Below, in pieces: positions 37,402-50,942 of a DNA stretch of 64,000 nucleotides. The notes beneath the pieces were generated by a model. That model worked only from the letters and a program-made list of their open reading frames with translations, did no database searches and had not been told where the DNA came from. The stretch lies in NCBI RefSeq assembly GCF_900104895.1, contig NZ_LT629742.1, forward strand, positions 3,720,001-3,784,000. Reading direction: 5' to 3'. This DNA comes from Microterricola viridarii. GTDB taxonomy: Bacteria > Actinomycetota > Actinomycetes > Actinomycetales > Microbacteriaceae. How positions within the stretch are numbered: the stretch's first letter is position 1; each line of letters starts with the position of its first letter. The position numbers and the translations under genes are program-made.

Positions 37402-37726
37402 GAAGCCACTCTCCCAAGTTCATGTCTGGGTAGACGAGCCACCCGTTGTGCCGTCACTCCGACAAAGTCGGTTCAATCATCCCCTGCCGTGGGCGACGGA
37501 GTGAAATCCTGCAGTGCCGCTCACCGGTTCGCGCGCAAATCAGTCGAGTTTTGACACCAAGACCATTGATTCCATCGCGCGGGCACCGCCGCACAACTGA
37601 ATGCATTGCGGCGCTCGTTTTGCGCTCTCATCTGCAGAAATGAGTGTCAGAGGGTGGTGGGAGTCTGGTTTCAGGCCGGAACGCCAGACGATTGCCGGCC
37701 TCGAAGATGCACGAGGAGGTGCAGCG
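37402..37726. other. 325-bp divergent intergenic region
   Basis: Lies between ugd and the DUF222/HNH gene. The HNH frame is open back to 37601, but GAGGAGG at 37713-37719 marks ATG 37727 as the start. I see no clear promoter or operator. Confidence 0.4.
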
Positions 37727-39121
37727 ATGAACGAAGCTTTGGAAACCCTTGCCGACTCGGTCGATGCTCTGGCATCCGCGTGGGAGCAGGCATCACCCGC
37801 ATCCTTTGCCGGCCCGCTCTCCGAGGCCCTTGGCCGGCAGGTCGAGGCGGACTTCGAGGGCATGACGGATTCCACGCTGATCAGCACCGTCGAGCGGCTG
37901 CAGAATGTCGTGCGCGCCGCCGACGCCCTGCGAATGCGGGCCGCAGCCGAGGTCGGGCGCCGCTCCCGCCCCGAGCTCGGGCCGGAGCGCTTGTGCACCC
38001 GGCAAGGGAGCAACTCCGCTCCCGGGTTTCTCTCCGAGGTGATGCGTGTGCCGATCGGCGAGGCCGCGAAACTGCAGCGGCTCGGCGAGCGCACCGCCAG
38101 CGGGCTGAGCTTCAGCGGGGCCGTCATCCCTCCCCCGTTCCCCGCCGTCGCCGCCGCACTGACGGCAGGCACGATCGGCACGGATGCCGCGGCCCACATT
38201 GTGCGGATGCTCGAGTCCGTTGCACCCCGCGCCGACCGCGAGCATATGGCCAGAGCCGAGGAGTCCTTGGTCCACGCCGCTGAAACGCTGACCGTCGCCA
38301 CCATCCTGCAGCTCTGTCAGGCTTGGCGGGATCGCCTCGATCAAGACGGCGTGCGCCCGCGCGAGGACGAGTTGCGCAGCCGGCGCGCCTTGACTCGGCG
38401 CACAACGGCCGACGGGATGACGGAATTGCACGTCGTGCTGGACCCCGAGAGCGCCGCCATCGTCGTGACGGCAGTCGACGGCATCGTCAGCGCCCAGTTG
38501 CACGCCAACCGTGAGAACGACGACCCGGCCCTCGCCGACGGGCGCGAACTGCCCGCGCTGCGCCTGGACGCGCTGGTCGACATCGCCCGCCACGCGCTCG
38601 GCTGCGAGAAGACCATGCCGGCGCTGCGCAGCACCACCGTCGTGGTGCGCACGACGCTCGAGGAGCTCACCAGCGGGCTGGGCACCGCCGAGATCGACGG
38701 CGTCGCAGACGGCCTGTCCGCTGCCAGCGCCCGTCGGTTGGCGGCGAGCGCAGAGATCATCCCGATCGTCCTCGGCGGCAGGAGCGAGGTGCTGGACCTC
38801 GGCAGGGCCCGCCGCAGCTTCACCCGGGCCCAGCGGATCGCCCTGGCCGAACGCGACGGCGGCTGCGCCTGGCCCGGCTGCCCGCATCCACCGGGCTATA
38901 CCGAGGCCCACCATCTCGAATGGTGGGAGCGGGACGACGGGCCCACCGACCTCTGCAACGGGATCCTGCTCTGCAGCGGCTGCCACCACCGAATACACGA
39001 CAATGGCTGGCAGGTGGAGATCATCGACAACGTGCCGTGGTTCATCCCGCCGGCCAGCGTGGACCCCGACCGGACGCCCCGACGCGGAGGCCGGATCAGC
39101 ATCGACACCATCGCCTGCTGA
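37727..39121 (+). CDS. DUF222/HNH endonuclease signature protein
   Basis: A 464-residue protein with an N-terminal DUF222 helical domain (about residues 45-330; LQNVVRAADALRMRAAAEVG is typical) and a C-terminal HNH nuclease motif: CAWPGCPHPPGYTEAHHLE, then WWERDDGPTDLCNGILLC and SGCHHRIHDNGW. Two Cys pairs and the HH/H residues for metal binding are intact. Such proteins are found in many copies in actinobacterial genomes; a role in DNA cleavage is presumed but the biological function is not established. GAGGAGG at 37713-37719 fixes the ATG at 37727. It is monocistronic. Confidence 0.88.
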   Translation: MNEALETLADSVDALASAWEQASPASFAGPLSEALGRQVEADFEGMTDSTLISTVERLQNVVRAADALRMRAAAEVGRRSRPELGPERLCTRQGSNSAPGFLSEVMRVPIGEAAKLQRLGERTASGLSFSGAVIPPPFPAVAAALTAGTIGTDAAAHIVRMLESVAPRADREHMARAEESLVHAAETLTVATILQLCQAWRDRLDQDGVRPREDELRSRRALTRRTTADGMTELHVVLDPESAAIVVTAVDGIVSAQLHANRENDDPALADGRELPALRLDALVDIARHALGCEKTMPALRSTTVVVRTTLEELTSGLGTAEIDGVADGLSAASARRLAASAEIIPIVLGGRSEVLDLGRARRSFTRAQRIALAERDGGCAWPGCPHPPGYTEAHHLEWWERDDGPTDLCNGILLCSGCHHRIHDNGWQVEIIDNVPWFIPPASVDPDRTPRRGGRISIDTIAC

Positions 39122-39154: not shown

Positions 39155-39664
39155 CTATCGGCTGCGGGCTGGCAGAGCGGTCTGATTCTGCGCTTGCCAG
39201 AGGGCTCGGGCGATCACCTTCTCGTCGCGGGCGTTCACGATGGCGCGCAGGATGATCGCCAGCAGCGTGCCGATCAGGCCGCCGATGGTGTTGGCGAAGA
39301 CATCGCTCATCGTGGCGAAGCGTGCGGTGAGCAGACCGGCCTGGGTGAGTTCAATGGCCACGGAGAGCGCCGGCGAGACCAGAACGGCGACCCACCAGAT
39401 GCGGGCGGGCAGGGCCAGGCCGAGCAGGAAGCCGAGTGGTACGAACATGAGGATGTTCGCCGTGAACTCCAGCTTGTTGTAGCCGAACCACTCAGGCACG
39501 CCGTTGCGGTGCAGCACGCCGAGGAACTTGTCGATCGCGGATTCGAAGCCCTGGTCAAGCGGGGTCGGCGAGAGCGTCATGGCGGCAACGACGCCGATGT
39601 AGGCCAGAAGCAGCAACAGGGAGGCGTTGCGGCGGGCATGGCTCGGTGGTGGCTGTTGGCTCAT
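39155..39664 (-). CDS. VanZ family membrane protein
   Basis: A 169-residue protein with four predicted helices. The extracytoplasmic or cytoplasmic loop between helices 1 and 2 contains NGVPEWFGYNKLEFTANILM followed by FVPLGFLLGLALP, the VanZ-like signature. The family is linked with teicoplanin resistance in enterococci, but most members outside that group have no defined role. It lies 33 bp from the convergent HNH gene and 139 bp downstream of the sugar isomerase gene on the same strand, and is not obviously part of that operon. Confidence 0.85.
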   Translation of the reverse strand: MSQQPPPSHARRNASLLLLLAYIGVVAAMTLSPTPLDQGFESAIDKFLGVLHRNGVPEWFGYNKLEFTANILMFVPLGFLLGLALPARIWWVAVLVSPALSVAIELTQAGLLTARFATMSDVFANTIGGLIGTLLAIILRAIVNARDEKVIARALWQAQNQTALPARSR

Positions 39665-39803
39665 TCGCTGGTGCCCCTCGGTTGCCGGTCACGTGAAAGA
39701 GCCAGCGTAGGTGACGCGCTGGGTGTTTCGCGCATCGGCGGGCGCCGCCCGCGCGTCGGCCACGCGTCGGCCGCGCCCGCCAATGCCGTCGTTGCCGCCG
39801 GCG

Positions 39804-40883
39804 CTACTGCGTGGAGAAGGCCGCGTCGAAGCTCGTCGCCGGCTGCTTCCAGAGCAGCGAGCGAATGTAGGCGAGTGCCTGCGGGCCGCCGTGCAGGCGG
39901 TCCATGCCCGCGTCCTCCCACTCGACCGAGATCGGGCCGGTGTAGCCGACCGCGTTGAGCGCCCGGAAGGCGTCCTCCCACGGCACATCACCGTGGCCGG
40001 TCGACACGAAGTCCCAGCCGCGGCGCGGGTCGCCCCACGGCAGGTGCGAGCCGAGCACCCCGGCCCGGCCGTTCTGCGGCCGCATCCGCGTGTCCTTGCA
40101 GTCGACGTGGTAGATCCGGTCCTGGAAGTCCCAGATGAAGCCGACGGGGTCGATGTTCTGCCACATCATGTGGCTGGGGTCCCAGTTGAACCCGAACGCG
40201 GGGCGGTGCCCGATGGCGTCGAGGGTGCGCACACTCGACCAGTAGTCGTAGGCGATCTCGCTCGGGTGCACCTCGTGGGCGAAACGCACGCCCTCGTCGT
40301 CGAAGACGTCGAGGATCGGGTGCCAGCGGGTGGCGAAGTCCTCGAAGCCGGCGTCGATCACGCTGGCCGGCACGGGCGGGAACATGGCGACGTACGGCCA
40401 GATCTTGGAGCCGGTGAACCCGACGACGGTGTCGACGCCGAGCTTGCGCGCCACCCGCGCCGCCCGCTTCATGTCGTCGGCCGCGCGCTGGCGGACCCCC
40501 TCCGCATCGCCGTCTCCCCAGGTGTAGTCGCGCACGATGGCCTGGTGGCGAAAGTCGATCGGGTCGTCGCAGACGGCCTGCCCGGTGAGGTGGTTGGAGA
40601 TGGCGTAGACGCTCAGGCCGTGCCTGTCGAGGGTCTCCAGCCGCGAGCGCAGGTACGCGTCGTCCTCGTCGGCGCGCTTGAGGTCGAGGTGGTCGCCGGA
40701 TGCCGCGATCTCCAGCCCGTCGTAGCCCCACTCGGCCGCCAGCCGCGCCACCTCCTCGAACGGGAGGTCGGCCCACTGCCCGGTGAAGAGCGTGACCGGA
40801 TGCGTCGGGGTTTCGACAGGCTCAACCGACGGGGTCGGCGAAACCGAAGGGGTCGGCTCCTGTGGCGCGTGCTGCTCGGTCAT
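39804..40883 (-). CDS. TIM-barrel sugar isomerase/epimerase-like enzyme (AP_endonuc_2 family)
   Basis: A 359-residue TIM-barrel protein, last in the sugar operon. VTLFTGQWADLPFEEVARLA starts the barrel. Probable metal ligands are the Glu in FAHEVHPSEIAYDYW, Asp and His in FGFNWDPSHMMWQ, His in RIYHVDCKD, and Glu in ISVEWEDAGMD. HLPWGDPRRGWDF is a strongly conserved block of this subfamily, which includes proteins often found with Gfo/Idh/MocA oxidoreductases and relatives of 3-keto-glycoside and C-glycoside lyases; the reaction here is inferred only as isomerase, epimerase or lyase chemistry on a (3-keto)sugar. The N-terminal 29 residues (SVSPTPSVEPVETPTHP) are partly encoded by a dispersed repeat. 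The start overlaps the preceding gene by 4 nt. Confidence 0.8.
   Translation of the reverse strand: MTEQHAPQEPTPSVSPTPSVEPVETPTHPVTLFTGQWADLPFEEVARLAAEWGYDGLEIAASGDHLDLKRADEDDAYLRSRLETLDRHGLSVYAISNHLTGQAVCDDPIDFRHQAIVRDYTWGDGDAEGVRQRAADDMKRAARVARKLGVDTVVGFTGSKIWPYVAMFPPVPASVIDAGFEDFATRWHPILDVFDDEGVRFAHEVHPSEIAYDYWSSVRTLDAIGHRPAFGFNWDPSHMMWQNIDPVGFIWDFQDRIYHVDCKDTRMRPQNGRAGVLGSHLPWGDPRRGWDFVSTGHGDVPWEDAFRALNAVGYTGPISVEWEDAGMDRLHGGPQALAYIRSLLWKQPATSFDAAFSTQ
40809..40827 (-). repeat. Dispersed repeat copy inside a coding sequence
   Basis: GGTTTCGACAGGCTCAACC, the exact reverse complement of the family consensus, lies within the 5' end of the sugar isomerase gene and encodes VEPVET on the minus strand. 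It lies before the conserved barrel and so seems to have lengthened the N-terminus. Confidence 0.8.
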
Positions 40884-41749
40884 CGGTGTTCCCTCTCGTT
40901 CTGCAAGGCGGTGAGGTAGGCAAAGGAGTCTGCGGCGAGCGCATCCTGGCTCTCGGCGAGGGGCCGCCAGACGGAGGCCGCGACGGCGATGGTGGCGTTG
41001 TCGCCGGTGAAGCTCTCCAGGCCGAGCGGACCGCGGTAGTCGACGTCGTCGAGCGCGTCCAGGAACGCCGCCCAGTCGATGTGGTCGTCGCCGACGGCGC
41101 CACGGTCGTTGCCGCAGACCTGCACATAGGCGAGGTGCCGGCCGGCCCGGCGGATGGCGTCGCCGATGCTCTTCTCCTCGATGTTGAGGTGGTAGCTGTC
41201 CAGCGCGAGCCCCAGGCCGCGGCCGAGCAGCGGGCCGAGGGCGGAGAGCGCCTGCTCGACGGTGTTGATGAGGCTCGTCTCATAGCGGTTGAGGGGCTCA
41301 ACGGCCAGGCGGATGCCGCTACGCTCGGCCCGGTTCACGACGGGGGCCAGCGCGGCGCGCAGTTCCTCGTGGTGCGCGGCCCTGTCGGCATCCGACATGC
41401 GCCAGGTGCGCCCGGTTGCCGCGTAGAACGGGCCGGCGACGATGCGGGAGCCGATGCGCTCGGCCACGTCGATGCAGTGCCCGAGGTAGTTCTGGGTGGC
41501 GACGATCTCGCTCGCCGGGGCGGCGACCAGGTTGCGGCCGGGGCCCATCGCGCCAACCACGATCGGCAGCAGGCGGTGCTCGGCCAGCACGTCGCGGGCG
41601 CGCTCCGGCGACCAGTCCCCCGGCGTCTCGACCGGCAGCTCGATCGCGCCGAACCCGAGGGCCGCGGCCTTGGCGGCGAGCGTCTCGAGGGTGGAGTCGG
41701 TGAGCGGGCTCGTCCACACCCACGTGTTCACGCCGAGCGTGCGTCTCAT
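40880..41749 (-). CDS. TIM-barrel sugar epimerase, D-tagatose/psicose 3-epimerase-like
   Basis: A 289-residue TIM barrel. The start RRTLGVNTWVWTSPLTDSTL, the block IAVEPLNRYETSLINT-type (IRLAVEPLNRYETSLINTVE), LALDSYHLNIEEKSI, VQVCGNDRGAVGDDHIDW and GLESFTGDN match ketose 3-epimerase and hydroxypyruvate isomerase-like enzymes. Metal-binding Glu, Asp and Glu are present; in the third block Gln stands where most relatives have His. AAGGAGG is 4 nt before the ATG at 41749, so the long open frame upstream is not used. It lies 103 bp after the binding-protein gene, with a hairpin between, and overlaps the next isomerase gene by 4 nt. Confidence 0.82.
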   Translation of the reverse strand: MRRTLGVNTWVWTSPLTDSTLETLAAKAAALGFGAIELPVETPGDWSPERARDVLAEHRLLPIVVGAMGPGRNLVAAPASEIVATQNYLGHCIDVAERIGSRIVAGPFYAATGRTWRMSDADRAAHHEELRAALAPVVNRAERSGIRLAVEPLNRYETSLINTVEQALSALGPLLGRGLGLALDSYHLNIEEKSIGDAIRRAGRHLAYVQVCGNDRGAVGDDHIDWAAFLDALDDVDYRGPLGLESFTGDNATIAVAASVWRPLAESQDALAADSFAYLTALQNEREHR

Positions 41750-41796
41750 ACTGCCTCCTTGCAGTTGTGGTGACGGCGTCACCGGGGAGAACCAGA

Positions 41797-41836
41797 TGAG
41801 CCTGTCGAAACCACCGTAGAGGTTTCGACAGGCCCA
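41797..41836 (-). terminator. Intercistronic hairpin built from the dispersed repeat
   Basis: TGAGCCTGTCGAAACC (41797-41812) and GGTTTCGACAGGCCCA (41821-41836) pair over 15 of 16 positions with an 8-nt loop. The hairpin lies in the only sizeable gap of the operon, just after the binding-protein stop codon and before the epimerase gene. It could attenuate transcription or protect the upstream mRNA, lowering enzyme relative to transporter expression. Confidence 0.6.
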
Positions 41837-41852
41837 CCGCTGGTCAGGCTCC

Positions 41853-43064
41853 TTACGGAATCTGGCGCTCCTGCCAGATCGTCGGGTAGCCGGGCAGGTC
41901 TTCTCCGCCGAACTTGGCGTAGTGACCGTCGGGCATGCCGTCGTTGGCGGCGAGGTACTGGTCAACCTCTTCGGCCGTGATCGGGCTCTGCGGCAGCACC
42001 CACTCCTGGGGGACCTGCTCGCCAGCGAAGATCATCTGGGCGGCGAGCAGCGGCGTCCGCCACTGGAAATTGGAGTAGACGGGGGCGAGGCCGGTCAGAC
42101 CGGTTTCCTTCCACTTGCGCAGGAAGCTCATCTCGTCTTCACCGGTCATGACCGGGTAGTCCACTCCGGCATCCTCGAAGGCCTCGATAGCGGCGACGGC
42201 GCCGTCACCGGCGTCCATCCAGATGCCCTTGACGTCACCCTTGGCGAGCTCATCGGAGATGATCTTCTTGATCTCGACCGGGTCGGCACCCGTGAAGTAG
42301 TCGACGGCCTCGATGCCGGCCTCATCGAAGAGCTTCTCGGCCGCTGCCCAGCGCTGCTCGAGCACGTCGACGCCCGGCAGGATGCGCAGGGCCACGACCT
42401 TGTCACCCTCCTGGAGGTTGTCGATCAGGAACTCGGCGGTGTCGATGCCCCACGCGAATCCACCGATCGGGTGGATGAACGTGACGGGGCAGTCGGTCTG
42501 CACGCCGCGGTCGAAGACGATCACCGGCAGGCCGGTGTCGCAGGCCCGCTCGACAGCCGGAGTCATGGCCGCCGTGCTGTTCGGCGAGATGACGAAGAAG
42601 TCGCAGTTGCCCTCGTTGATGAAGTAGTCGATGTCGGCGATCTGCGTGTCATCGCTGTCCTGCGCGTCACGGGTCTCGAGCTCGCTGATCGCACCGGATT
42701 CCTGCAGCGCCTTCAGCTGCTCGTTCATGGTGATCCAGCCGGTCTGGCGCCAGGGGTTGGAGATCGAGGCGTTCGCGAAGCAGCCCTTCTTGGCCCCCTC
42801 CGCCTTGTACTGGCTGGTGTCGACCATCTCTGCGTTGATGTACTGCAGGTACGGCTTGCCGTCCGGCCCCTCTGGCACGACGGAGCGCTCGGCGTCCTGC
42901 TTGTCGAAGAGTGCCTGGTCAAACCACTCCACCGATGGCGCGGCGGTCTCTTCGCTGCCGGTGGTCTCGGTCGGGGCGGTCACGCCCGGGTCGGTCGTGC
43001 AGCCGGCCAGGGTCAGCAGCGCAAAAGCTCCGACCATGGCGGACACTACGTGCATTCGTCGCAT
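41853..43064 (-). CDS. Sugar ABC transporter substrate-binding lipoprotein (RbsB-type)
   Basis: A 403-residue extracellular binding protein. The lipoprotein signal ends LLTLAGC, so it is anchored to the membrane by Cys at about residue 22. The fold is the periplasmic-binding type 1 class used for ribose, xylose, galactose and inositol: FFVISPNSTAAMTPAVERAC, LPVIVFDRGVQTDCPVTFIH, VVALRILPGVDVLEQRWAAA and IWMDAGDGAVAAIEAFEDAG are visible. It is longer than RbsB and has extra Cys residues that could form disulphides. AAGGAGG precedes the ATG by 6 nt, and the ATG overlaps the stop of the upstream permease gene (TGATG). Ligand unknown. Confidence 0.9.
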   Translation of the reverse strand: MRRMHVVSAMVGAFALLTLAGCTTDPGVTAPTETTGSEETAAPSVEWFDQALFDKQDAERSVVPEGPDGKPYLQYINAEMVDTSQYKAEGAKKGCFANASISNPWRQTGWITMNEQLKALQESGAISELETRDAQDSDDTQIADIDYFINEGNCDFFVISPNSTAAMTPAVERACDTGLPVIVFDRGVQTDCPVTFIHPIGGFAWGIDTAEFLIDNLQEGDKVVALRILPGVDVLEQRWAAAEKLFDEAGIEAVDYFTGADPVEIKKIISDELAKGDVKGIWMDAGDGAVAAIEAFEDAGVDYPVMTGEDEMSFLRKWKETGLTGLAPVYSNFQWRTPLLAAQMIFAGEQVPQEWVLPQSPITAEEVDQYLAANDGMPDGHYAKFGGEDLPGYPTIWQERQIP

Positions 43065-44164
43065 CACAAACCTCCTTGGTTGTGTGTCTTGTCGCCCTCG
43101 GGGTGCGCTGAACCAGCGTTCAGAGGGGTGTGAGTTGCAGTGCGAGTCGCGCCCTCCATCGGGCGCTCCTCCTTCTCCGGTGTGGGGGAAGCTTGTGCCG
43201 GCCGCGCGCGGCGGCGCGATCGGACGGTCGTGGCCGAGTAGGCCACGGCCGCGATGATGATGACGCCCTGGATGGCATCGCGCCAGGTCGACGGGACGTC
43301 GTAGAAGTTCAACAGCGTGAACAGGGCCTCCAGCGCGAAGGCTCCGGCGGCCGCGGCCACGACCCACCCGCGCCCGCCGCCGAGTACTACCCCGCCGAGC
43401 ACGACGGCCGTGATGGCGATGAACTCGTAGCCGCGGCCGACCGAGGGGTGCACGCCGGCGTAGCCGACCAGCAGGATGCCGGCAACCGTCGCCGAGAGCG
43501 AGGAGAGGATGAAGGTGCTCGTCTTGACCCACCAGCTGCGCGCTCCGGCGTACTTCGCGACGGTCGGGTTGTCGCCGAGCGCGATGATGGTGCGGCCGAA
43601 CGGGCGCTTCATGAACCACACGGCGAGGCCGAGCACGACGGCCAGGATGAGCACCGACCAGGGGATGAAGTCGAGCACGGGCACGTCGCGGATGCCGCCG
43701 CGCCCGATCTGGCGGAAGGAGTCGGCCGGGTTGCCCGTCGCCGCGCCGCCCGTCCAATAGAACACGGCGCCGAGCAGCGCGAGCATCATGCCGAGCGTCA
43801 CGATGAACGACGGCACCTTGAGGAACGAGACGATCACGCCGTTGATCAGTCCGATGACGGCGCCGAAGACGAACATGAAGATGAGCACGGGGATCGACCG
43901 GCTCTCGTCCTGGCCGATCAGGTTGCCGGCTATCACGACCTGCGCCGTCACGAGCGACCCCATCGACAGGTCGAACTCGCCGCCGACGATCACGAAGTAC
44001 TGGCCGATGGCCACGATCGCGACGGGGGCGACTCTCTGGATGAAGCGCATCAGCTGGCCGGGCTCGGCGAAGTCCGGGTTGCGGATCGTGATCGCCACGA
44101 GCAGCACGATCAGCAGCAGAAAGACGGCGCCGCGCGGGCTCACCAAGGTCTTCACGGCGTTCAT
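43064..44164 (-). CDS. Sugar ABC transporter permease (RbsC-type)
   Basis: A 366-residue permease with about 9-10 helices. IVAIGQYFVIVGGEFDLSMG is the conserved block with the GGxDLS motif of this family, VPSFIVTLGMMLALLGAVFY and FGRTIIALGDNPTVAKYAGA follow, and ITAVVLGGVVLGGGRGWVVA is the C-terminal block. The last 45 residues are a hydrophilic extension rich in Arg, Pro and Glu. The start overlaps the other permease by 4 nt and the stop overlaps the binding-protein start. It forms the membrane channel together with the second permease. Confidence 0.9.
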   Translation of the reverse strand: MNAVKTLVSPRGAVFLLLIVLLVAITIRNPDFAEPGQLMRFIQRVAPVAIVAIGQYFVIVGGEFDLSMGSLVTAQVVIAGNLIGQDESRSIPVLIFMFVFGAVIGLINGVIVSFLKVPSFIVTLGMMLALLGAVFYWTGGAATGNPADSFRQIGRGGIRDVPVLDFIPWSVLILAVVLGLAVWFMKRPFGRTIIALGDNPTVAKYAGARSWWVKTSTFILSSLSATVAGILLVGYAGVHPSVGRGYEFIAITAVVLGGVVLGGGRGWVVAAAAGAFALEALFTLLNFYDVPSTWRDAIQGVIIIAAVAYSATTVRSRRRARPAQASPTPEKEERPMEGATRTATHTPLNAGSAHPEGDKTHNQGGL

Positions 44165-45321
44165 GACCGGTCTCCCACGTTCGTGTCGAGCTGGGCCGAG
44201 CTGTGCTGGGCCGCGCTGTGCTTGGTCGAGTCGGGCTGGGTCGATTCGGGCTGGGCCGAGGCGGATGCCGGGGCGGGTGCCTGGGCATCCGGGCCCGCAT
44301 CGCCTTCCCTCTCCGTGGCCGATCCGCCTGGACCGAAACGTGCCCGCCGGCGCTCCACCTGGCGCCCGGTGTAGACGGCGACGGCCGCGACGATGACGAT
44401 GCCGCGCACGACGTCCTTCATGAACGGGTTCACCTGCAGCACGCTCATCACGTTGTCGAGCACTGCGAAGATCGCGACGCCGCCGATGGTGCCCCAGATC
44501 GAGCCCCGGCCGCCGGCGAGCAGGGTGCCGCCGAGCACGACCGCGGCGATCGAGAGCAGGTCGTAGCCGCCCTGGGTGCCGACGGTCGGGCTCCCGACGC
44601 CGAGGCGGCTGGCCAGCAGCAGGCCGGCCATGGCGGCCGACACCGAGCAGAGCACGTGGGCGAGGATCACCGGGTTGGCCGTGCGGATGCCGCTGAGCCT
44701 CGCGACCTGCTCGTTGCCGCCGACGGCGTAGATGTGGTTGCCGACCCTGGTCCGGTTGAGGAAGAGCGCGGCCAGCAGCGCGACGGCGAGCATGATGACG
44801 GTCGACACCGGCACGGGCCCGATGCCCGTCGCGCCGATCAGCTGGAACTCCCAGGGCACGCTGCCGCTGGTTCCCTTGTAGTTGGTGTCGAGGTAGCCCT
44901 TGATGATGAGCCCCATGCCGAGGGTCGCGATGAAGCCGTGCACCTTGAGCTTGGTGACGATCAGGCCGTTGGCCAGGCCGAGCAGCGCCGCGACGCCCAG
45001 GGCGACGGCGACCGCTGCGGCGATATTGGCAGGGTTGCCCTTCATGATGTCGGCGGCGAGCAGGCTGGAGAGGCTGATCACGTAGGGGACGGAGAGGTCG
45101 AGCGAGCCGCAGAGGATCACCAGGGTCTGCCCGATGGCCACGAAGCCGAGCACGCTCATGCCGGTCAGGATGTCGCGGATGTTGCCCGCGCTGAAGAAGC
45201 TGCGCCCGACGGTGGCGACGAGGATCGCCCCGATCGCGATCACACCGATCAGCGCCAGGTAGACGATCACCGTGGAGTCGAGGCGACGCCCAGAGCGGCG
45301 CCGTGCGGAGACCGCGTTCAT
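44161..45321 (-). CDS. Sugar ABC transporter permease (RbsC-type), second
   Basis: A 386-residue permease, paralogous to the next one. Conserved blocks are VAIGQTLVILCGSLDLSVPY (CGSLDLS in place of the GGxDLS type), VHGFIATLGMGLIIKGYLDT, VGNHIYAVGGNEQVARLSGI and IAAVVLGGTLLAGGRGSIWG. The C-terminal tail of about 60 residues is low-complexity, rich in Ala, Gln, Ser and Pro (STQPDSTKHSAAQHSSAQ). ATG overlaps the ATPase stop by 4 nt. Two permease genes suggest a heterodimeric channel. Confidence 0.9.
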   Translation of the reverse strand: MNAVSARRRSGRRLDSTVIVYLALIGVIAIGAILVATVGRSFFSAGNIRDILTGMSVLGFVAIGQTLVILCGSLDLSVPYVISLSSLLAADIMKGNPANIAAAVAVALGVAALLGLANGLIVTKLKVHGFIATLGMGLIIKGYLDTNYKGTSGSVPWEFQLIGATGIGPVPVSTVIMLAVALLAALFLNRTRVGNHIYAVGGNEQVARLSGIRTANPVILAHVLCSVSAAMAGLLLASRLGVGSPTVGTQGGYDLLSIAAVVLGGTLLAGGRGSIWGTIGGVAIFAVLDNVMSVLQVNPFMKDVVRGIVIVAAVAVYTGRQVERRRARFGPGGSATEREGDAGPDAQAPAPASASAQPESTQPDSTKHSAAQHSSAQLDTNVGDRS

Positions 45322-46853
45322 GCCCGTGTCCCTTCGTGTGCGGATGCCGCGGCACCCGTTGCCGCCGAGAGCACCTGCTCCTCGGTGGAGCCCGCGGGCA
45401 GCTCGGCCACGATGCGGCCGTCGTGCATGACGAGGATGCGGTCTGACATGCCGATCACCTCCGGCAGCTCGGACGAGATCATCAGGATCGCGACCCCCTC
45501 CCGGGCGAGCTGACGCATCAGCTGGTAGACGGCGATCTTCGCGCCGACATCGATGCCGCGGGTCGGCTCGTCGAGCAGGACGACCCTCGGCTTGGTGGCC
45601 AGCCACTTGGCGAGCACCACCTTCTGCTGGTTGCCGCCGGAGAGGAACTGCACCTCCTGACCGAGCCCCTGCGAGCTGATCTCGAGCGAGCTGAGCACGC
45701 CGGGGATCTCCTTGCGCACGGCCGCGGTGCGCCGGGCGAAGACGCCGCGGATCACCAGCAGCGCATTGTCGAGGACCGACTGGCCGAGCGCGAGGCCCTG
45801 GGCCTTGCGGTCTTCGGTAATGAGGGCGACGCCGTGCTTGACGGCGGCCCGCGGGCTGCCGATGCGCACCGGCGAGCCGTCCAGCGTGATGGTTCCCCGG
45901 TTGAAGGGTGCCGCCCCGAAGATCGCCTCGACGAGCTCGGTGCGCCCGCTGCCCTGCAGCCCGGACATCCCGACGATCTCGCCGGCGCGCAGCTCGACGT
46001 CGATGCCGTCGACGAAGGCGTTGCCGCCGTCGCTGACCGCCAAGCGGAGCTCCCCGACCGTGGTTCCCCCTACAGGGCCGGGGAAGAATGTCTCGATCGA
46101 GCGGCCGACCATGCGGCGCACCAGCTCGTTCGTGTCGAGCTCTGCGGCAGGGCCACTGCTGACGAGCGCCCCGTCCTTGAGCACCGTGATGCTGTCGCAG
46201 AGCTCGAAGATCTCCTTGAGCCGGTGGCTGACGTAGAGGATCGCGACGCCGCGCGCCTGCAGCCGGCGGATGATGCCGTACAACAGCGCGACCTCGTGAT
46301 CGGCCAGAGCCGCCGTCGGCTCGTCCATCGAGATCACCCGGGCGTCGTAGCTGAGCGCCTTGGCGATCTCGACGATCTGCTGTTCGGCCACGGTGAGCGA
46401 GCCGACGCGGGCGGTCGGGTCGATGAAGTCGATGCCGAGCTCGTCGAGCAGCGCCCGGGTCTGTCGCACCATGGCGCGCTGGCTGACGAAGCCGCGCCGG
46501 CGCGGCTCGCGGCCGAGGTACACGTTCTGGGCGACGCTGCGGTCCGGCAGCAGGTTGAACTCCTGGAACACCGTCGCCAGCCCGGCGTTCATCGCCTGCA
46601 CCGGGTGGCCGAACACCACCGGCTCGCCGCCGAGCGTGACGACACCGGCGTCCCGCTCGTAGACCCCGGCCAGGATCTTCATGAAGGTCGACTTGCCCGC
46701 GCCGTTCTCGCCGACGAGGCCGTGCACCTGGCCAGGCATCAGCTCGATGCCGACGTCGTGCAGCACCGTCACGCCGAAAAAGCTCTTGCTCAGGCCGGTG
46801 GCGGTGAGGATGGGCACGGCGGCGCCGGGCGCCATGGGGGTCTGCTCGCTCAT
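45318..46853 (-). CDS. Sugar ABC transporter ATP-binding protein (RbsA/MglA-type, two domains)
   Basis: A 511-residue protein with two fused nucleotide-binding domains. In domain 1, Walker A is GENGAGKSTFMK, the signature is degenerate (LTVAEQQIVEIAK), and Walker B is VISMDEPTAAL. In domain 2, Walker A has Arg for Lys (GLQGSGRTELVE), the signature is LSGGNQQKVVLAKWL and Walker B is VVLLDEPTRGIDVG. This asymmetry is normal for RbsA-type proteins. Start and stop each overlap neighbours by 4 nt (oxidoreductase before, permease after). It powers import of the sugar bound by the lipoprotein in this operon. Confidence 0.93.
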   Translation of the reverse strand: MSEQTPMAPGAAVPILTATGLSKSFFGVTVLHDVGIELMPGQVHGLVGENGAGKSTFMKILAGVYERDAGVVTLGGEPVVFGHPVQAMNAGLATVFQEFNLLPDRSVAQNVYLGREPRRRGFVSQRAMVRQTRALLDELGIDFIDPTARVGSLTVAEQQIVEIAKALSYDARVISMDEPTAALADHEVALLYGIIRRLQARGVAILYVSHRLKEIFELCDSITVLKDGALVSSGPAAELDTNELVRRMVGRSIETFFPGPVGGTTVGELRLAVSDGGNAFVDGIDVELRAGEIVGMSGLQGSGRTELVEAIFGAAPFNRGTITLDGSPVRIGSPRAAVKHGVALITEDRKAQGLALGQSVLDNALLVIRGVFARRTAAVRKEIPGVLSSLEISSQGLGQEVQFLSGGNQQKVVLAKWLATKPRVVLLDEPTRGIDVGAKIAVYQLMRQLAREGVAILMISSELPEVIGMSDRILVMHDGRIVAELPAGSTEEQVLSAATGAAASAHEGTRA

Positions 46854-48028
46854 TCGGTGACCTCCACCCAGCGGCCGGATGCCGCGGACTCCAGCACGGC
46901 GGCGGTCACGCGCACGGCGCGCAAGCCGTCCGCGAAGGTCGGCAGGCCCTCCGGCCGCGCCCCGTCCGGCGCGACGGCAGCTGAATAGCTGTCGGCGACG
47001 AAGGAGTTGAAGGCGTCTTGATAGCCCATCGGATGCCCGGCGGGCACGACGCTGAGCCTGGCCGCGTCCGGCGACAGCAGGCCGGGATCGCGCACCAGGT
47101 GGCGGAAGCCTGATCGGCGGCCGAGCCAGAGCTCGTCCGGCCGCTCCTGATCGAAGCGGATGCTCTCCTCTGTGCCGGAGATCTCCAGGACGAGGCTGTT
47201 CTTGCGCCCGAGCGCCACCTGCGAGATGAGCAGCGTGCCGACGGCTCCGCCGCGCATCTCGACGACGAGTGCGACGAGGTCTTCGGTGGCGATGTCGCGA
47301 TTGCTCGAGCGCTCGCCGTAGACGGTGCGCGTCGTGGCGTTCAACCGGGCGATCCGATCGCCGGTCACGAACTCCAGCAGGTCGACGAGGTGGGAGCCGA
47401 TGTCGGCGAACGCCCGCGACGGGCCGCCGAGCTCGGCGTTCACCCGCCAATCGTCCGAGAGCGGCTCGGCCAGCCAGTCCTGCAGGTATCCGCCGGTCAG
47501 GCTGAGCAGCCGGCCGGTCTCGCCGCTCAGCACGCGGGCGCGGGCCTCGCGCACCATCGGGTGGAAGCGGTAGACGAAGGGCACTGTCGCGCTGAGGCCG
47601 CTGGCCTCGGCCCGGCGGGCCAGCTCGGCCGCGTCGCCGACCGAGGTCGCCAGCGGCTTCTCGCAGATGACGTGCTTGCCGGCGTCCAGCGCCGCCAGCG
47701 CGAACGGGGCGTGCGTGGTGTTGGGGGTGCAGATGTGCACGACGTCGATGTCGCCGTCGCTGAGCAGCTCGTTCACCGAGGAGTAGGAGCGCTCGAGCCC
47801 GAGCAGCGCCGCGGCCTGTTCGGCGCTGGCGCTGGAGGAGGCCGCGGCCCCGGCGAGCGTGGCACGGGCGGCCCTGGCTGCCCGGCTGTGCACGGCGGCC
47901 ATGAAGCCGGCGCCGATGAATCCGGCCCGGAGTGCGCCGGTGCGGCCAGCGGCGGCCTCGGCGAACGCCGCACGAGCCGGGCTCGTCGCGTCCGCGGTGG
48001 CGGCAGAATCGATGACGGTCTTTGTCAT
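46850..48028 (-). CDS. Gfo/Idh/MocA family oxidoreductase
   Basis: A 392-residue NAD(P)-dependent sugar or inositol dehydrogenase-like enzyme, first in the operon. The Rossmann motif is AGFIGAGFMAAVHSRA at about residues 39-54, followed by DVVHICTPNTTHAPFALAAL, the catalytic-Lys block GKHVICEKPLATSV, and in the C-terminal domain FADIGSHLVDLLEFVTGD with the usual Asp/His pair. It probably oxidises a sugar hydroxyl, possibly at C3. The first 38 residues are Ala/Thr-rich and look dispensable. There is no Shine-Dalgarno sequence before the ATG at 48028, so a leaderless mRNA is possible. Divergent from the ROK repressor gene. Confidence 0.9.
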   Translation of the reverse strand: MTKTVIDSAATADATSPARAAFAEAAAGRTGALRAGFIGAGFMAAVHSRAARAARATLAGAAASSSASAEQAAALLGLERSYSSVNELLSDGDIDVVHICTPNTTHAPFALAALDAGKHVICEKPLATSVGDAAELARRAEASGLSATVPFVYRFHPMVREARARVLSGETGRLLSLTGGYLQDWLAEPLSDDWRVNAELGGPSRAFADIGSHLVDLLEFVTGDRIARLNATTRTVYGERSSNRDIATEDLVALVVEMRGGAVGTLLISQVALGRKNSLVLEISGTEESIRFDQERPDELWLGRRSGFRHLVRDPGLLSPDAARLSVVPAGHPMGYQDAFNSFVADSYSAAVAPDGARPEGLPTFADGLRAVRVTAAVLESAASGRWVEVTE

Positions 48029-48054
48029 GGGGAGAGTGTGACACACGTTGCGCG

Positions 48055-48112
48055 ACTTTTGCTAGTTAAAAATCAAAAGTTGTTTGTCACGATTCAGCTT
48101 CGCCTTTATCAA
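48055..48112. promoter_or_regulatory. Divergent control region with palindrome and promoter for the ROK gene
   Basis: ACTTTTG (48055-48061) and CAAAAGT (48074-48080) are perfect inverted arms with a 12-nt A/T-rich spacer, unusual in this GC-rich DNA. For the ROK gene, TTGTCA (48084-48089) and TATCAA (48107-48112) are 17 bp apart. On the other strand GTGACA (48090-48085) has a TAACTA-like -10 inside the palindrome. Repression of both directions by the ROK protein is the natural reading. Confidence 0.65.
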
Positions 48113-48137
48113 CTCCTGTAAGCCGATGTGATTTACT

Positions 48138-49334
48138 GTGCCCATGGTCGACTTAAACCGCGGTTCCGCGCTCGGGAGCTCCGGCGCCAGCGAGCTCTTT
48201 CAGCTGCTGCGCGACGGGCAGCCCCGTACGCGCGCCGAACTCGCCGCGCTCACCGGGCTGGCCCGGTCCACCATCGCGGCCAGGGTCGAGACGTTGATGG
48301 CGCTGGAGCTCATCTCCCCCGTCGGCGACGCGGCGTCCACCGGCGGCCGCCCCTCCTCGCAGTTCGCGCTCAACGCCTCGGCACGCATCGTGCTGGCCGC
48401 CGACCTCGGCGCCACCCACGCGACGCTGGCGGCGACAGACCTGGCGGGCGTCGTCCTCGGGGAGGTGCACGAGGACATCGACATCGCGAGCGGTCCAGAG
48501 GCGGTGCTCGGCTGGATGGTGTCGGCGGCCAGGCAGCTGCTCGACGAGCTCGGCCGGCCGCACCACGACCTCATCGCCATCGGGGTCGGCGTGCCCGGCC
48601 CGGTCCAACACTCCACCGGGCGGCCGGTGAACCCGCCGATCATGCCCGGCTGGGACCGCTTCGACGTTCCCGGCTGGGTGCAGCAACACCTCGAGGTGCC
48701 GGTGCTCGTCGACAACGACGTGAACATCATGGCCCTCGGCGAGCGCGCGTTCGCCTGGCCCAACACCGAGCACCTCATGTTCGTCAAGGTGGCCACGGGC
48801 ATCGGCGCCGGCGTCATCTCCGGCGGGCTGCTGCAGCGGGGCGCCCAGGGCATCGCGGGTGACATCGGGCACGTGCAGGTGGCGCGCGGCGCCGGCATCC
48901 CCTGCCACTGCGGCAATCGCGGCTGCCTGGAGGCCCTGGCCTCCGGCCCGGCCATCGCCAAGGCGCTGCGCGAGGCGGGGCTCGACGTGGCCTCGAGCCG
49001 CGACGTCATCGAGCTGGTCAAGCGCGGCAACATCGAGGCGATCCAGGCCGTGCGGCAGGCCGGCCGCGACATCGGCGAGGTGCTCACCGCCGCGGTGAGC
49101 CTCATCAACCCCTCCGTTATCGCCATCGGCGGCTCGATGGCGCGCGCGGGCGAGCACCTGATCGCCGGCGTCCGCGAGATCGTCTACACCCGCTCGATGC
49201 CGCTGGCCACCGAGCACCTGTCCATCGTGCAGAGTTCGGCCGCCGAGAACGCGGCGGTGCTGGGCGCCAGCATGCTCGCCATCCACCACGCGCTCTCCCC
49301 GGCCGGAGTCGACGCCCTCTCACCCCGCGCCTGA
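48138..49334 (+). CDS. ROK family transcriptional repressor
   Basis: A 396-398-residue regulator with an N-terminal winged helix (SELFQLLRDGQPRTRAELAA, LTGLARSTIAARVETLMALE) joined to a sugar-kinase-like ROK domain. VLAADLGATHATLAATDLAG is the phosphate-binding block, GVGVPGPVQHSTG and LVDNDVNIMALGE follow, and CHCGNRGCLEALASG is the zinc-binding ROK signature. It is divergent from the sugar operon and most likely represses it until a sugar effector binds. GTG 48138 and ATG 48144 are both possible; there is no clear ribosome site. A promoter at 48084-48112 gives a leader of about 20-25 nt. Confidence 0.9.
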   Translation: MPMVDLNRGSALGSSGASELFQLLRDGQPRTRAELAALTGLARSTIAARVETLMALELISPVGDAASTGGRPSSQFALNASARIVLAADLGATHATLAATDLAGVVLGEVHEDIDIASGPEAVLGWMVSAARQLLDELGRPHHDLIAIGVGVPGPVQHSTGRPVNPPIMPGWDRFDVPGWVQQHLEVPVLVDNDVNIMALGERAFAWPNTEHLMFVKVATGIGAGVISGGLLQRGAQGIAGDIGHVQVARGAGIPCHCGNRGCLEALASGPAIAKALREAGLDVASSRDVIELVKRGNIEAIQAVRQAGRDIGEVLTAAVSLINPSVIAIGGSMARAGEHLIAGVREIVYTRSMPLATEHLSIVQSSAAENAAVLGASMLAIHHALSPAGVDALSPRA

Positions 49335-49422
49335 GCTCCGACCGGCAGCGGCACCGCCCGGCGAGCCGACAGATTCTCCGGTCGGGTGCACACAGCGGCG
49401 CGCGCCGAGAGACAATGGAGGG

Positions 49423-50175
49423 GTGAGTGATGCTGTGCTGGGCCTGTTCGACACCGATTCTGACGGTGCTGGCTCGCTGCACGGCGAGGCCCCCGCGGCA
49501 TCCGTGGCCCCCTGCCTGACGCGCATCGTGGCCGATTCCGGTGACCGCGCCGCGTGGATGTACGCCAGGGCGCGGGGCATCACGGCGACGGATGTCGCCA
49601 AGCTCTCGACCCCGCGGTCGATCCAGTCGGCCGCCTTCGAGAAGCTCAACGGCTCGAGCTTCAGCGGAAACTCCTGGACCGACCACGGCCGCGCCCGCGA
49701 GCCCGTGATCGCCGAGTGGGTGCGCCGCGAGCACGGAATCGAGCCGAGCTCGAGCCTGTTCCACGCCGCAGAGGAGCGGCTGCACCTGGCCACACCGGAC
49801 GGCATCGCGGTGCGCACGGGCGGCCGGGTCGAGCTGGCCGAGATCAAGACCACGAGCAAGGCGTGGCGCAGCATCCCCCGCCCGTACATGCGCCAGGTGT
49901 GGTGGCAGCAGTACGTGCTCGGCGCGGAGCGCACCCTCGTCGTGTGGGAGCAGCACGACAACTTCGTGCCGATCGGCGAGGAGCCGCTCTCGCGCTGGGT
50001 CGACCGCGACGACGAGCAGATCGCGCTGCTGATCGGCCTGGCCGGGCAGCTGGTCGACGAGCTGCGCGACCGCACCGCGCGCAAGCTGGAGGCGCAGGCC
50101 GCGGCCTCCGCCCGCGCGGCCCGGGCCGCCGAGGCGCGCGAGCTCTACGGACCCGGCGCCCTCTACGTGCCCTGA
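49423..50175 (+). CDS. YqaJ-type viral recombinase/exonuclease domain protein
   Basis: A 250-residue protein of the PD-(D/E)XK nuclease superfamily, related to lambda-type exonucleases. GITATDVAKLSTPRS, DHGRAREPVIAEWVRREHGI, LHLATPDGIAV and VELAEIKTTSKAW supply the expected catalytic residues (Glu of AREP, Asp of TPDGI, Glu and Lys of AEIKT), followed by RQVWWQQYVLGAERTLVVWE. The C-terminal 40 residues are an Ala/Arg-rich helix. The GTG at 49423 follows GGAGG closely. There are no phage genes nearby; its stop overlaps the start of an alpha/beta hydrolase gene (TGATG). In this host context it may be a domesticated repair enzyme. Confidence 0.82.
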   Translation: MSDAVLGLFDTDSDGAGSLHGEAPAASVAPCLTRIVADSGDRAAWMYARARGITATDVAKLSTPRSIQSAAFEKLNGSSFSGNSWTDHGRAREPVIAEWVRREHGIEPSSSLFHAAEERLHLATPDGIAVRTGGRVELAEIKTTSKAWRSIPRPYMRQVWWQQYVLGAERTLVVWEQHDNFVPIGEEPLSRWVDRDDEQIALLIGLAGQLVDELRDRTARKLEAQAAASARAARAAEARELYGPGALYVP

Positions 50176-50942
50176 TGGCCACCCTCCTGCTGCACGGGCT
50201 CGGCGCCGACCGGCGTCAGCCGCTCGAGCTGTTCGGGCCGGTGCTGGCCGACTCCCCGGAGTCGGTGGTCGCCCTGGATGTGCGCGCCCACGGCGCCTCG
50301 CCGTTGATCGGGTCGGCGGCCGACTTCACACTGCCCGCCCTGGCCGCAGAGCTCGCGGCATCCGCCCGCGCCGCGCTGCCGCCGGGCGAACCCGTCACCC
50401 TGATCGGCATCTCGATGGGCGCCGCCCTCGCGCTGCGCATCGCCCTCGACGAGCTGCTGCCGGTGCGCCGGGCCGTGTTCGTGCGGCCGGCGTTCTCGAG
50501 CGAGGCGCTGCCCCCGAACCTGCACGCGTTCCCGGTGATCGCCGAGCTGCTCACCCGCCTGGGCCCCGCTGAGGGGGTCGAGTCCTTCCGCGAGAGCTCG
50601 CTCTACCAGGAGGTCGCCGCCGCCTCCCCGGCCGGCGGGCGCGGCCTGCTCGGCCAGTTCACCGCCCCGGATGCCGTGGCGCGGGCCGTGCGGCTGACCG
50701 AGGTTCCCCGCAATCGCGCCTATCGCGACACCGCCGAGCTCGCGGCGCTGTCTGCCCGCGGCGTGCCGGCACTCGTGGTCGCAGCGCCGCGGGACCCGGT
50801 GCACCCCGTGGCCGTGGCTGCCGAGTGGGCAGAGGGGCTCGGGGCCGAGCTGCTGACCGTGCCCGCCCGCGACGACTCGCAGCCCGCGCAGACCGCCGCG
50901 CTGCGGGCGGGCCTCGCCGAATGGCTGCGCACGGTCGACTGA
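50175..50942 (+). CDS. Alpha/beta hydrolase
   Basis: A 255-residue hydrolase. TLLLHGLGADRRQPLELFGP at the start holds the oxyanion-hole HGL; GISMGAALALRIAL is the nucleophile elbow with Ser at about residue 82; VAAPRDPVHPVAVAAEWAEG supplies the acid, and the catalytic His is near the end, though the usual GH is not obvious (VPARDDSQPAQ), so the last residue of the triad is uncertain. Translation is coupled to the YqaJ-type gene by TGATG. A shared pathway for a nuclease and a hydrolase is not apparent. The substrate is unknown. Confidence 0.82.
   Translation: MATLLLHGLGADRRQPLELFGPVLADSPESVVALDVRAHGASPLIGSAADFTLPALAAELAASARAALPPGEPVTLIGISMGAALALRIALDELLPVRRAVFVRPAFSSEALPPNLHAFPVIAELLTRLGPAEGVESFRESSLYQEVAAASPAGGRGLLGQFTAPDAVARAVRLTEVPRNRAYRDTAELAALSARGVPALVVAAPRDPVHPVAVAAEWAEGLGAELLTVPARDDSQPAQTAALRAGLAEWLRTVD

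Follow-up and report, generated by a model that had tools for sequence, protein, structure and literature searches.

A conserved Microterricola viridarii operon that may import and break down a glycoside through C3-keto chemistry

The stretch of the Microterricola viridarii genome analysed here (64,000 nucleotides; contig NZ_LT629742.1, positions 3,720,001 to 3,784,000; hereafter the window, to which coordinates refer unless a locus is named) carries a compact operon of seven minus-strand genes next to a divergent regulatory gene of the ROK family. We propose, with a probability of roughly 60%, that this operon lets the cell take up and catabolise a glycoside, or an anhydro- or otherwise modified glucose, by a route through C3-keto chemistry that ends in glucose. 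One end of the operon is formed by GFO, a Gfo/Idh/MocA oxidoreductase that groups with the LgdC enzymes of levoglucosan (LG) loci, and the other by TIMA, an AP_endonuc_2 barrel that looks like a 2-hydroxy-3-keto-glucal hydratase. Between them lie an ABC importer, with a double ATPase, two permeases and a sugar-binding lipoprotein (SBP), and a second barrel, TIMB. The same gene order recurs in related genomes, and one congener shows an in-place exchange of all that lies between the GFO and TIMA genes.

Results

GFO (392 residues; 46850-48028, minus strand), a Gfo/Idh/MocA protein by Pfam, belongs by a tree to the LgdC clade, that of 3-ketoglucose reductases/glucose 3-dehydrogenases, and not to LgdA. 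The tree has 103 rows, chosen from 190 pooled matches plus the window and three references. Its LgdC rows are the second Gfo genes of levoglucosan dehydrogenase (LGDH) loci, identified by position and published description, and no Bacillus smithii sequence is among them. The window GFO groups with 22 operon orthologues (support 100/99), the neighbouring group consists of 28 second-Gfo genes of LGDH loci together with L036 (100/95), and 17 LgdA rows are separated from this side of the tree at 100/100 (labels beginning with L denote fetched loci of relatives and those beginning with G genomes, G000 being M. viridarii itself). L021 joins the window and LG-locus groups at 99/93 and the Bacillus second Gfo joins at 100/97; the tree program warned of long branches, for YcjS against the window's side and for the Bacillus pair.

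LgdC has been described as catalysing the NAD+-dependent oxidation of glucose at C3 (PMC7676230). LgdC acts last in its pathway, so reduction of 3-ketoglucose is no less probable a role for GFO than formation of the first 3-keto sugar. The sequence-only reading had proposed import followed by oxidation at C3; import and a C3-keto pathway remain the best account of the operon, with GFO now placed by the tree among last-step enzymes.

At E<=1e-80 the LGDH model matched in 131 of 248 genomes of the order and its cut-off was passed in 5. The 80 named LGDH loci, fetched with an alignment of five LGDH, are the best 80 of 414 (58 of them full length) and include that of Paenarthrobacter nitroguajacolicus LG01 (L063, 21 kb), whose LG-induced proteins have been published (PMC10066097). 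Since the codon-usage caller applied to the relatives overlooks some genes, such as GFO in L060 and L167 and every gene of L036, counts in relatives were made by tblastn. A GFO relative (>=43% identity) occurred in 49 of the 80 loci, a TIMA relative (>=60%, >=75 residues) in 27, and TIMA with an LgdC-like GFO in 24. Compared with the proteins of L063, the window GFO shares 52% identity with the second Gfo and 33% with LGDH; this locus showed no TIMA relative at >=60%.

TIMA (359 residues; 39804-40883, minus strand) is 68% identical (E 7e-157) to PDB 2zds, an entry labelled putative DNA-binding protein that we take to be Streptomyces SCO6571. It also aligned over 321 residues (E 3e-37) with 8ro4, named 2-hydroxy-3-keto-glucal hydratase; the structure record gives the molecule name only, and the protein is presumably the Agrobacterium hydratase AtHYD. 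A further relative is the presumed LgdB2 of Bacillus, a barrel so assigned by its position next to the second Gfo in L138 and L140. Among 14 chosen sequences of the TIMA family, 8ro4 and the presumed Bacillus LgdB2 included, 24 residues are invariant, H98, E204, D235, H238, K263, R288, E321 and E323 among them. Significant full-length homology and common conserved residues thus place TIMA in the 8ro4/LgdB2 hydratase family, and it looks like a hydratase of the LgdB2/AtHYD type rather than a C-C lyase, probably one that depends on a metal. It is possible that TIMA corresponds to the LgdB3 of PMC10066097. Of the isomerase or lyase roles first suggested for the two barrels, a lyase/hydratase-type role survives; TIMA resembles hydratases instead of C-C lyases, and TIMB is nearest to ketose 3-epimerases.

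Strong TIMA relatives numbered 44 in 59 genomes, M. viridarii included, and 38 of their neighbourhoods were fetched, leaving out the window, G004, G026, G016, G056 and G049. In 35 of the 38 loci TIMA has a same-strand Gfo gene no more than 7 kb away, and in 26 the distance is at most 250 bp. The other neighbours vary: a small barrel and a second Gfo in L018 (tested there; other loci by inspection), ThuA in L025 (tested) as well as L042, L048 and L050 (by similar N-termini), and, in L034, the beta subunit of C-glycoside deglycosidase (CGD-beta), a GMC oxidoreductase and two barrels, with CGD-beta also inside L045 and L046. By inspection, an RbsABC-type importer is the only further member of the families sought in L031, L033, L035, L037 and L039. 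The exchange is most direct in a congener (L014), in which DNA matches to the window above 80 bits cover 39192-40805 and 46860-50725, with none between. ROK, GFO, TIMA and both flanks are kept in L014, and the middle has been replaced in place by a pyranose-oxidase-like GMC oxidoreductase, a CUT1 importer and an IolE-like barrel (L014:10282-15969). Given the Gfo-TIMA relatives in LGDH loci, the varied neighbours and this in-place exchange, the Gfo-TIMA pair appears to form a common "hydrate and reduce" half-pathway to which different front ends can be joined. TIMA types and Gfo types are not strictly inherited together: in L022 a TIMA of the window's type (83%) stands with a Gfo of the other class.

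The whole operon is also conserved. TIMB relatives (E<=1e-40) were found in 27 of 299 Microbacteriaceae genomes, and the order ROK, GFO, ATPase, permease, permease, SBP, TIMB, TIMA is complete in 17 of these 27, M. viridarii being counted in both figures (window, L013, L015, L016, L019, L164-L174 and L176). Finding the same order in 16 other genomes puts it beyond chance. Among the ten TIMB genomes outside this set, G004 was not fetched, L024 is a hybrid that carries an extra barrel-Gfo pair, L175 has TIMB and the importer with a Gfo of another class adjoining TIMA, and the seven loci L177-L183 show TIMB in different contexts or as a remnant. L183 retains only a partial TIMB match, two TIMA matches and one SBP match, as if the operon were decaying there. 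TIMB relatives of 49-51% identity stand in a different cluster in L178 (5240-10352) and L180 (9511-13700), in which inspection of N-termini suggested an alpha/beta hydrolase, a zinc-type dehydrogenase and more barrels, with a CUT1 importer and a GH3-like protein nearby; this cluster is possibly a second route to the function of TIMB.

The layout seen in the sequence-only reading, seven minus-strand genes with nearly all neighbours overlapping and a divergent ROK gene, was confirmed by gene calls and Pfam at 39804-48028 and 48138-49334, and all eight proteins matched a Pfam family above its gathering score. TIMA and TIMB, the two permeases, permease 1 and the ATPase, and the ATPase and GFO overlap by 4 nt each, and SBP and permease 2 by 1 nt. 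The sole junction without overlap is the 103-nt gap between SBP and TIMB, and AGGAGG precedes the TIMB ATG. An ORF of 506 codons adjoins the operon at 37601-39121; we take its C-terminal motif to be HNH-like.

The importer is of the RbsABC/AraFGH type by Pfam, with an RbsA/AraG-type double ATPase (511 residues; 45318-46853; also by NCBIfam), permease 1 (386 residues; 44161-45321) and permease 2 (366 residues; 43064-44164), both BPD_transp_2, and the lipoprotein SBP (403 residues; 41853-43064; Peripla_BP_4, 98 bits), all on the minus strand. The best PDB match of SBP is 4pe6, named Putative ABC transporter, and no NCBIfam equivalog scored above its cut-off for this protein.

The ROK regulator (398 residues; 48138-49334, plus strand; ROK Pfam 205 bits) is divided from the GFO start at 48028 by an intergenic gap of 109 bp that contains a palindrome, the candidate operator GACTTTTG-N12-CAAAAGTT at 48054-48081. 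This is its sole match in the 3.84-Mb genome, and 100 shuffled versions of the window did not contain the core pattern. Being unique does not suffice as proof, because a backward control pattern matches as often or more often; such a pattern is not in itself rare, and the weight of the candidate lies in its place and its conservation. Of the 35 ROK genes at TIMA/TIMB loci, 21 have CTTYTG-N10-15-CARAAG upstream, compared with 0 of 35 at LGDH loci; the 143 stretches scanned contain 23 such sites, never more than one per stretch. In seven of the misses (L019, L170-L174, L176) a variant that differs by one base keeps the spacing. Several orthologues have TTGACAAAAG as the right arm, and a -10-like box stands a few bases before the GFO ATG in the window (48028-48060) and several orthologues, which together suggest local repression by ROK at this site and perhaps a leaderless GFO message. 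No further site of the pattern appeared in the genome and, with it, no sign of another enzyme under ROK control.

TIMB (289 residues; 40880-41749, minus strand) has its closest PDB structures among D-allulose, L-ribulose and D-tagatose 3-epimerases (115 bits alone, 197 as a profile); it scored 37 bits alone and 81 as a profile against the 3-keto-glucoside 4-epimerase YcjR (6wn6), and no structure named eliminase was among its listed PDB matches. E151, D184, H187, Q210, R216 and E245 are invariant in 24 aligned sequences, the window included and the near copies L165 and L179 omitted. Of the Glu/Asp/His/Glu metal site of ketose 3-epimerases, both Glu and the Asp are retained, as are other active-site residues, and Gln210 replaces the metal-ligand His in all 24. 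A more distant relative (30%; L028:6284-7123) carries His at this position; YcjR shows His as well, and the idea that it shares the Gln was dropped. Because epimerase active-site residues are retained and the metal-site His is Gln, TIMB is probably a proton-transfer enzyme, and our guess is that it would epimerise or eliminate beside a 3-keto group. These matches also bear on a rare-monosaccharide pathway, in which a rare aldose or ketose would be imported, TIMB would act as ketose 3-epimerase, and GFO and TIMA would interconvert keto and dehydrated forms with no glycosidic cleavage. RbsA-type importers usually carry monosaccharides, which would suit it too; however, TIMB reaches 109.5 bits with the D-psicose 3-epimerase model of NCBIfam where the cut-off is 300, its Gln stands in place of the metal His, and the families of TIMA and GFO indicate 3-ketoglucose chemistry. 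We consider this pathway unlikely, though the most serious competitor to C3-keto catabolism of a glycoside.

The rest of the M. viridarii genome was searched for partners of the operon. LGDH (LgdA) had no match at E<=1e-80, with 7 of 15 first-look candidates scored. The LgdB1 of LG01 gave two partial matches (32% and 34% over about 140-170 residues) far from the window, both at sites of PF01261 barrels and none in the operon, and LgdB1-like genes of nine LGDH loci, compared with the eight proteins, matched TIMA only, at 20-24%, or nothing. The importer also differs from those of the LG clusters examined, with 42-45% identity for the ATPase, 32-35% for the permease and no lipoprotein match at the thresholds used. 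Catabolism of levoglucosan or another anhydrosugar proper would explain why GFO and TIMA have relatives in LGDH loci, some of which have ROK relatives and an adjacent Gfo-TIMA pair (Cryobacterium L133, L136, L137 and L139), but with neither an LgdA nor a close LgdB1 found, and with a different transporter, it seems quite improbable. Gfo domains were matched 15 times in the genome and a GMC oxidoreductase once, and it is possible that an unlinked dehydrogenase performs the first oxidation. Two more barrel-Gfo neighbours lie at G000:C1:705711-706974, with a partial LgdB1 match, and at 119662-120734.

The CGD beta subunit (PF19906) was not found in the M. viridarii genome, in a scan in which no control scored either, and the same search was positive in 3 of 8 other genomes. 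The link to C-glycoside breakdown drawn from the sequence alone is seen in relatives, in which Gfo-TIMA lies beside CGD-beta (L034, L045 and L046); for this genome a C-glycoside function was set aside on that negative search. An inositol-type operon, with GFO as inositol dehydrogenase and TIMA as inosose dehydratase, would account for a family-level likeness of GFO to IolG and of TIMA to IolE, but the scores, 106.7 and 34.7 bits, are far below the cut-offs of 355 and 290, and the tree puts GFO with LgdC. The eight genes include no kinase and no iolB, iolC or iolD, as had been noted from the sequence (iolB/C/D were not sought genome-wide), and we regard an inositol-type function as very improbable.

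Discussion

The route that we infer from these families would begin with the ABC importer bringing in a glycoside or an anhydro- or modified glucose. Its C3-keto form would be made, most simply by GFO, and the hydride later returned to 3-ketoglucose, so that a single oxidoreductase would run a redox-neutral pathway. TIMB would then work next to the keto group of the 3-keto sugar, by epimerisation or beta-elimination, TIMA would hydrate, and perhaps also form, 2-hydroxy-3-keto-glucal to give 3-ketoglucose, and GFO would reduce 3-ketoglucose to glucose, with ROK controlling the operon locally at the candidate operator. LgdB2 has been described as partly bifunctional, with some eliminase activity (PMC7676230), and the hydration role of AtHYD was presented as preliminary evidence (PMC10628242). 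DgpA (D3dgpA), a single Gfo with a ping-pong mechanism, oxidises glycosides and reduces 3-oxo-glucose (PMC11239390), a precedent by which one Gfo could in principle perform both redox steps; we extend it to GFO by analogy. More tentatively, glycoside cleavage may be a self-contained system of separate proteins, with one LgdC-type Gfo for both redox steps and TIMB as a new 3-keto-glycoside barrel; more boldly still, other microbes may oxidise the sugars at C3 before the importer takes them up, in which case no first oxidation would be needed.

Several results count against C3-keto catabolism of a glycoside by this operon. The top NCBIfam model of GFO is LGDH (NF052479), with 199 bits for a cut-off of 650; its group joins the LG-locus LgdC genes at 93/79 only; and the documented role of LgdC is the last step, the parts of the literature consulted describing no case in which it carries out the initial oxidation of a glycoside. 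TIMA falls under the cut-off of every NCBIfam model that it matches, and its identity is low, 30% to 8ro4 and 27% to the presumed LgdB2. Among the 80 LGDH loci an LgdC-like GFO is missing from 31, a TIMA relative from 53 and both from 28. In the TIMA neighbourhoods, the nearby Gfo belongs to an LGDH-like third class in 23 of 38 and to the class of the window in 12, so that Gfo-TIMA is not one fixed protein pair, and L043, L044 and L049 have TIMA with no same-strand Gfo within 7 kb. The best scores of TIMB, with ketose 3-epimerases, suit a monosaccharide pathway equally well, and the operator pattern is not enriched genome-wide, its backward control giving two genome matches in one scan and one in another.

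The proposed chemistry has close parallels in described systems. The LgdA-LgdB1-LgdB2-LgdC pathway of Bacillus smithii and Paenarthrobacter (PMC7676230, PMC10066097) is alike in its LgdC-clade Gfo, LgdB2-type barrel, RbsABC-like importer and expected end product, glucose; in contrast, no LgdA and no close LgdB1 were found here, and the operon has another transporter, an extra ketose-3-epimerase-like barrel and its own ROK and operator. The Agrobacterium GlycDH-AtOGE-AtHYD-Gfo operon (PMC10628242) shares a hydratase-type barrel beside a Gfo reductase and the logic of oxidation, elimination, hydration and reduction, but there the glycoside dehydrogenase and the eliminase are each proteins of their own. 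The C-glycoside clusters CarABC, DgpABC and PsG3Ox (PMC8563793, PMC10646112) resemble the loci that pair Gfo-TIMA with CGD-beta, and differ from the window, whose genome yielded no CGD-beta and whose operon has no GMC oxidoreductase. YcjQRS of E. coli (D-guloside/D-glucoside 3-dehydrogenases and a 3-keto 4-epimerase) is alike in combining Gfo with an epimerase-type barrel that acts beside a 3-keto group, with only weak similarity of YcjR to TIMB and His where TIMB has Gln.

Three operons of oxidation-elimination-hydration-reduction logic are compared in PMC10628242 and the variety of LGDH neighbourhoods is described in PMC10066097. The term SCO6571 turned up once, in a single paper (PMC6629963). 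Searches of an open-access library, with most subscription papers outside its scope, listed no description of this operon or of the in-place exchange of its front end.

Examination of this locus suggests a job for the actinobacterial barrel family of the 2zds type, which the PDB labels a putative DNA-binding protein. In 3-keto-glycoside catabolism the "hydrate and reduce" half seems to behave as a module open to reuse, with a front end that can be swapped in place, and the neighbours of Gfo-TIMA pairs may therefore offer a handle for finding new glycoside-cleaving enzymes.

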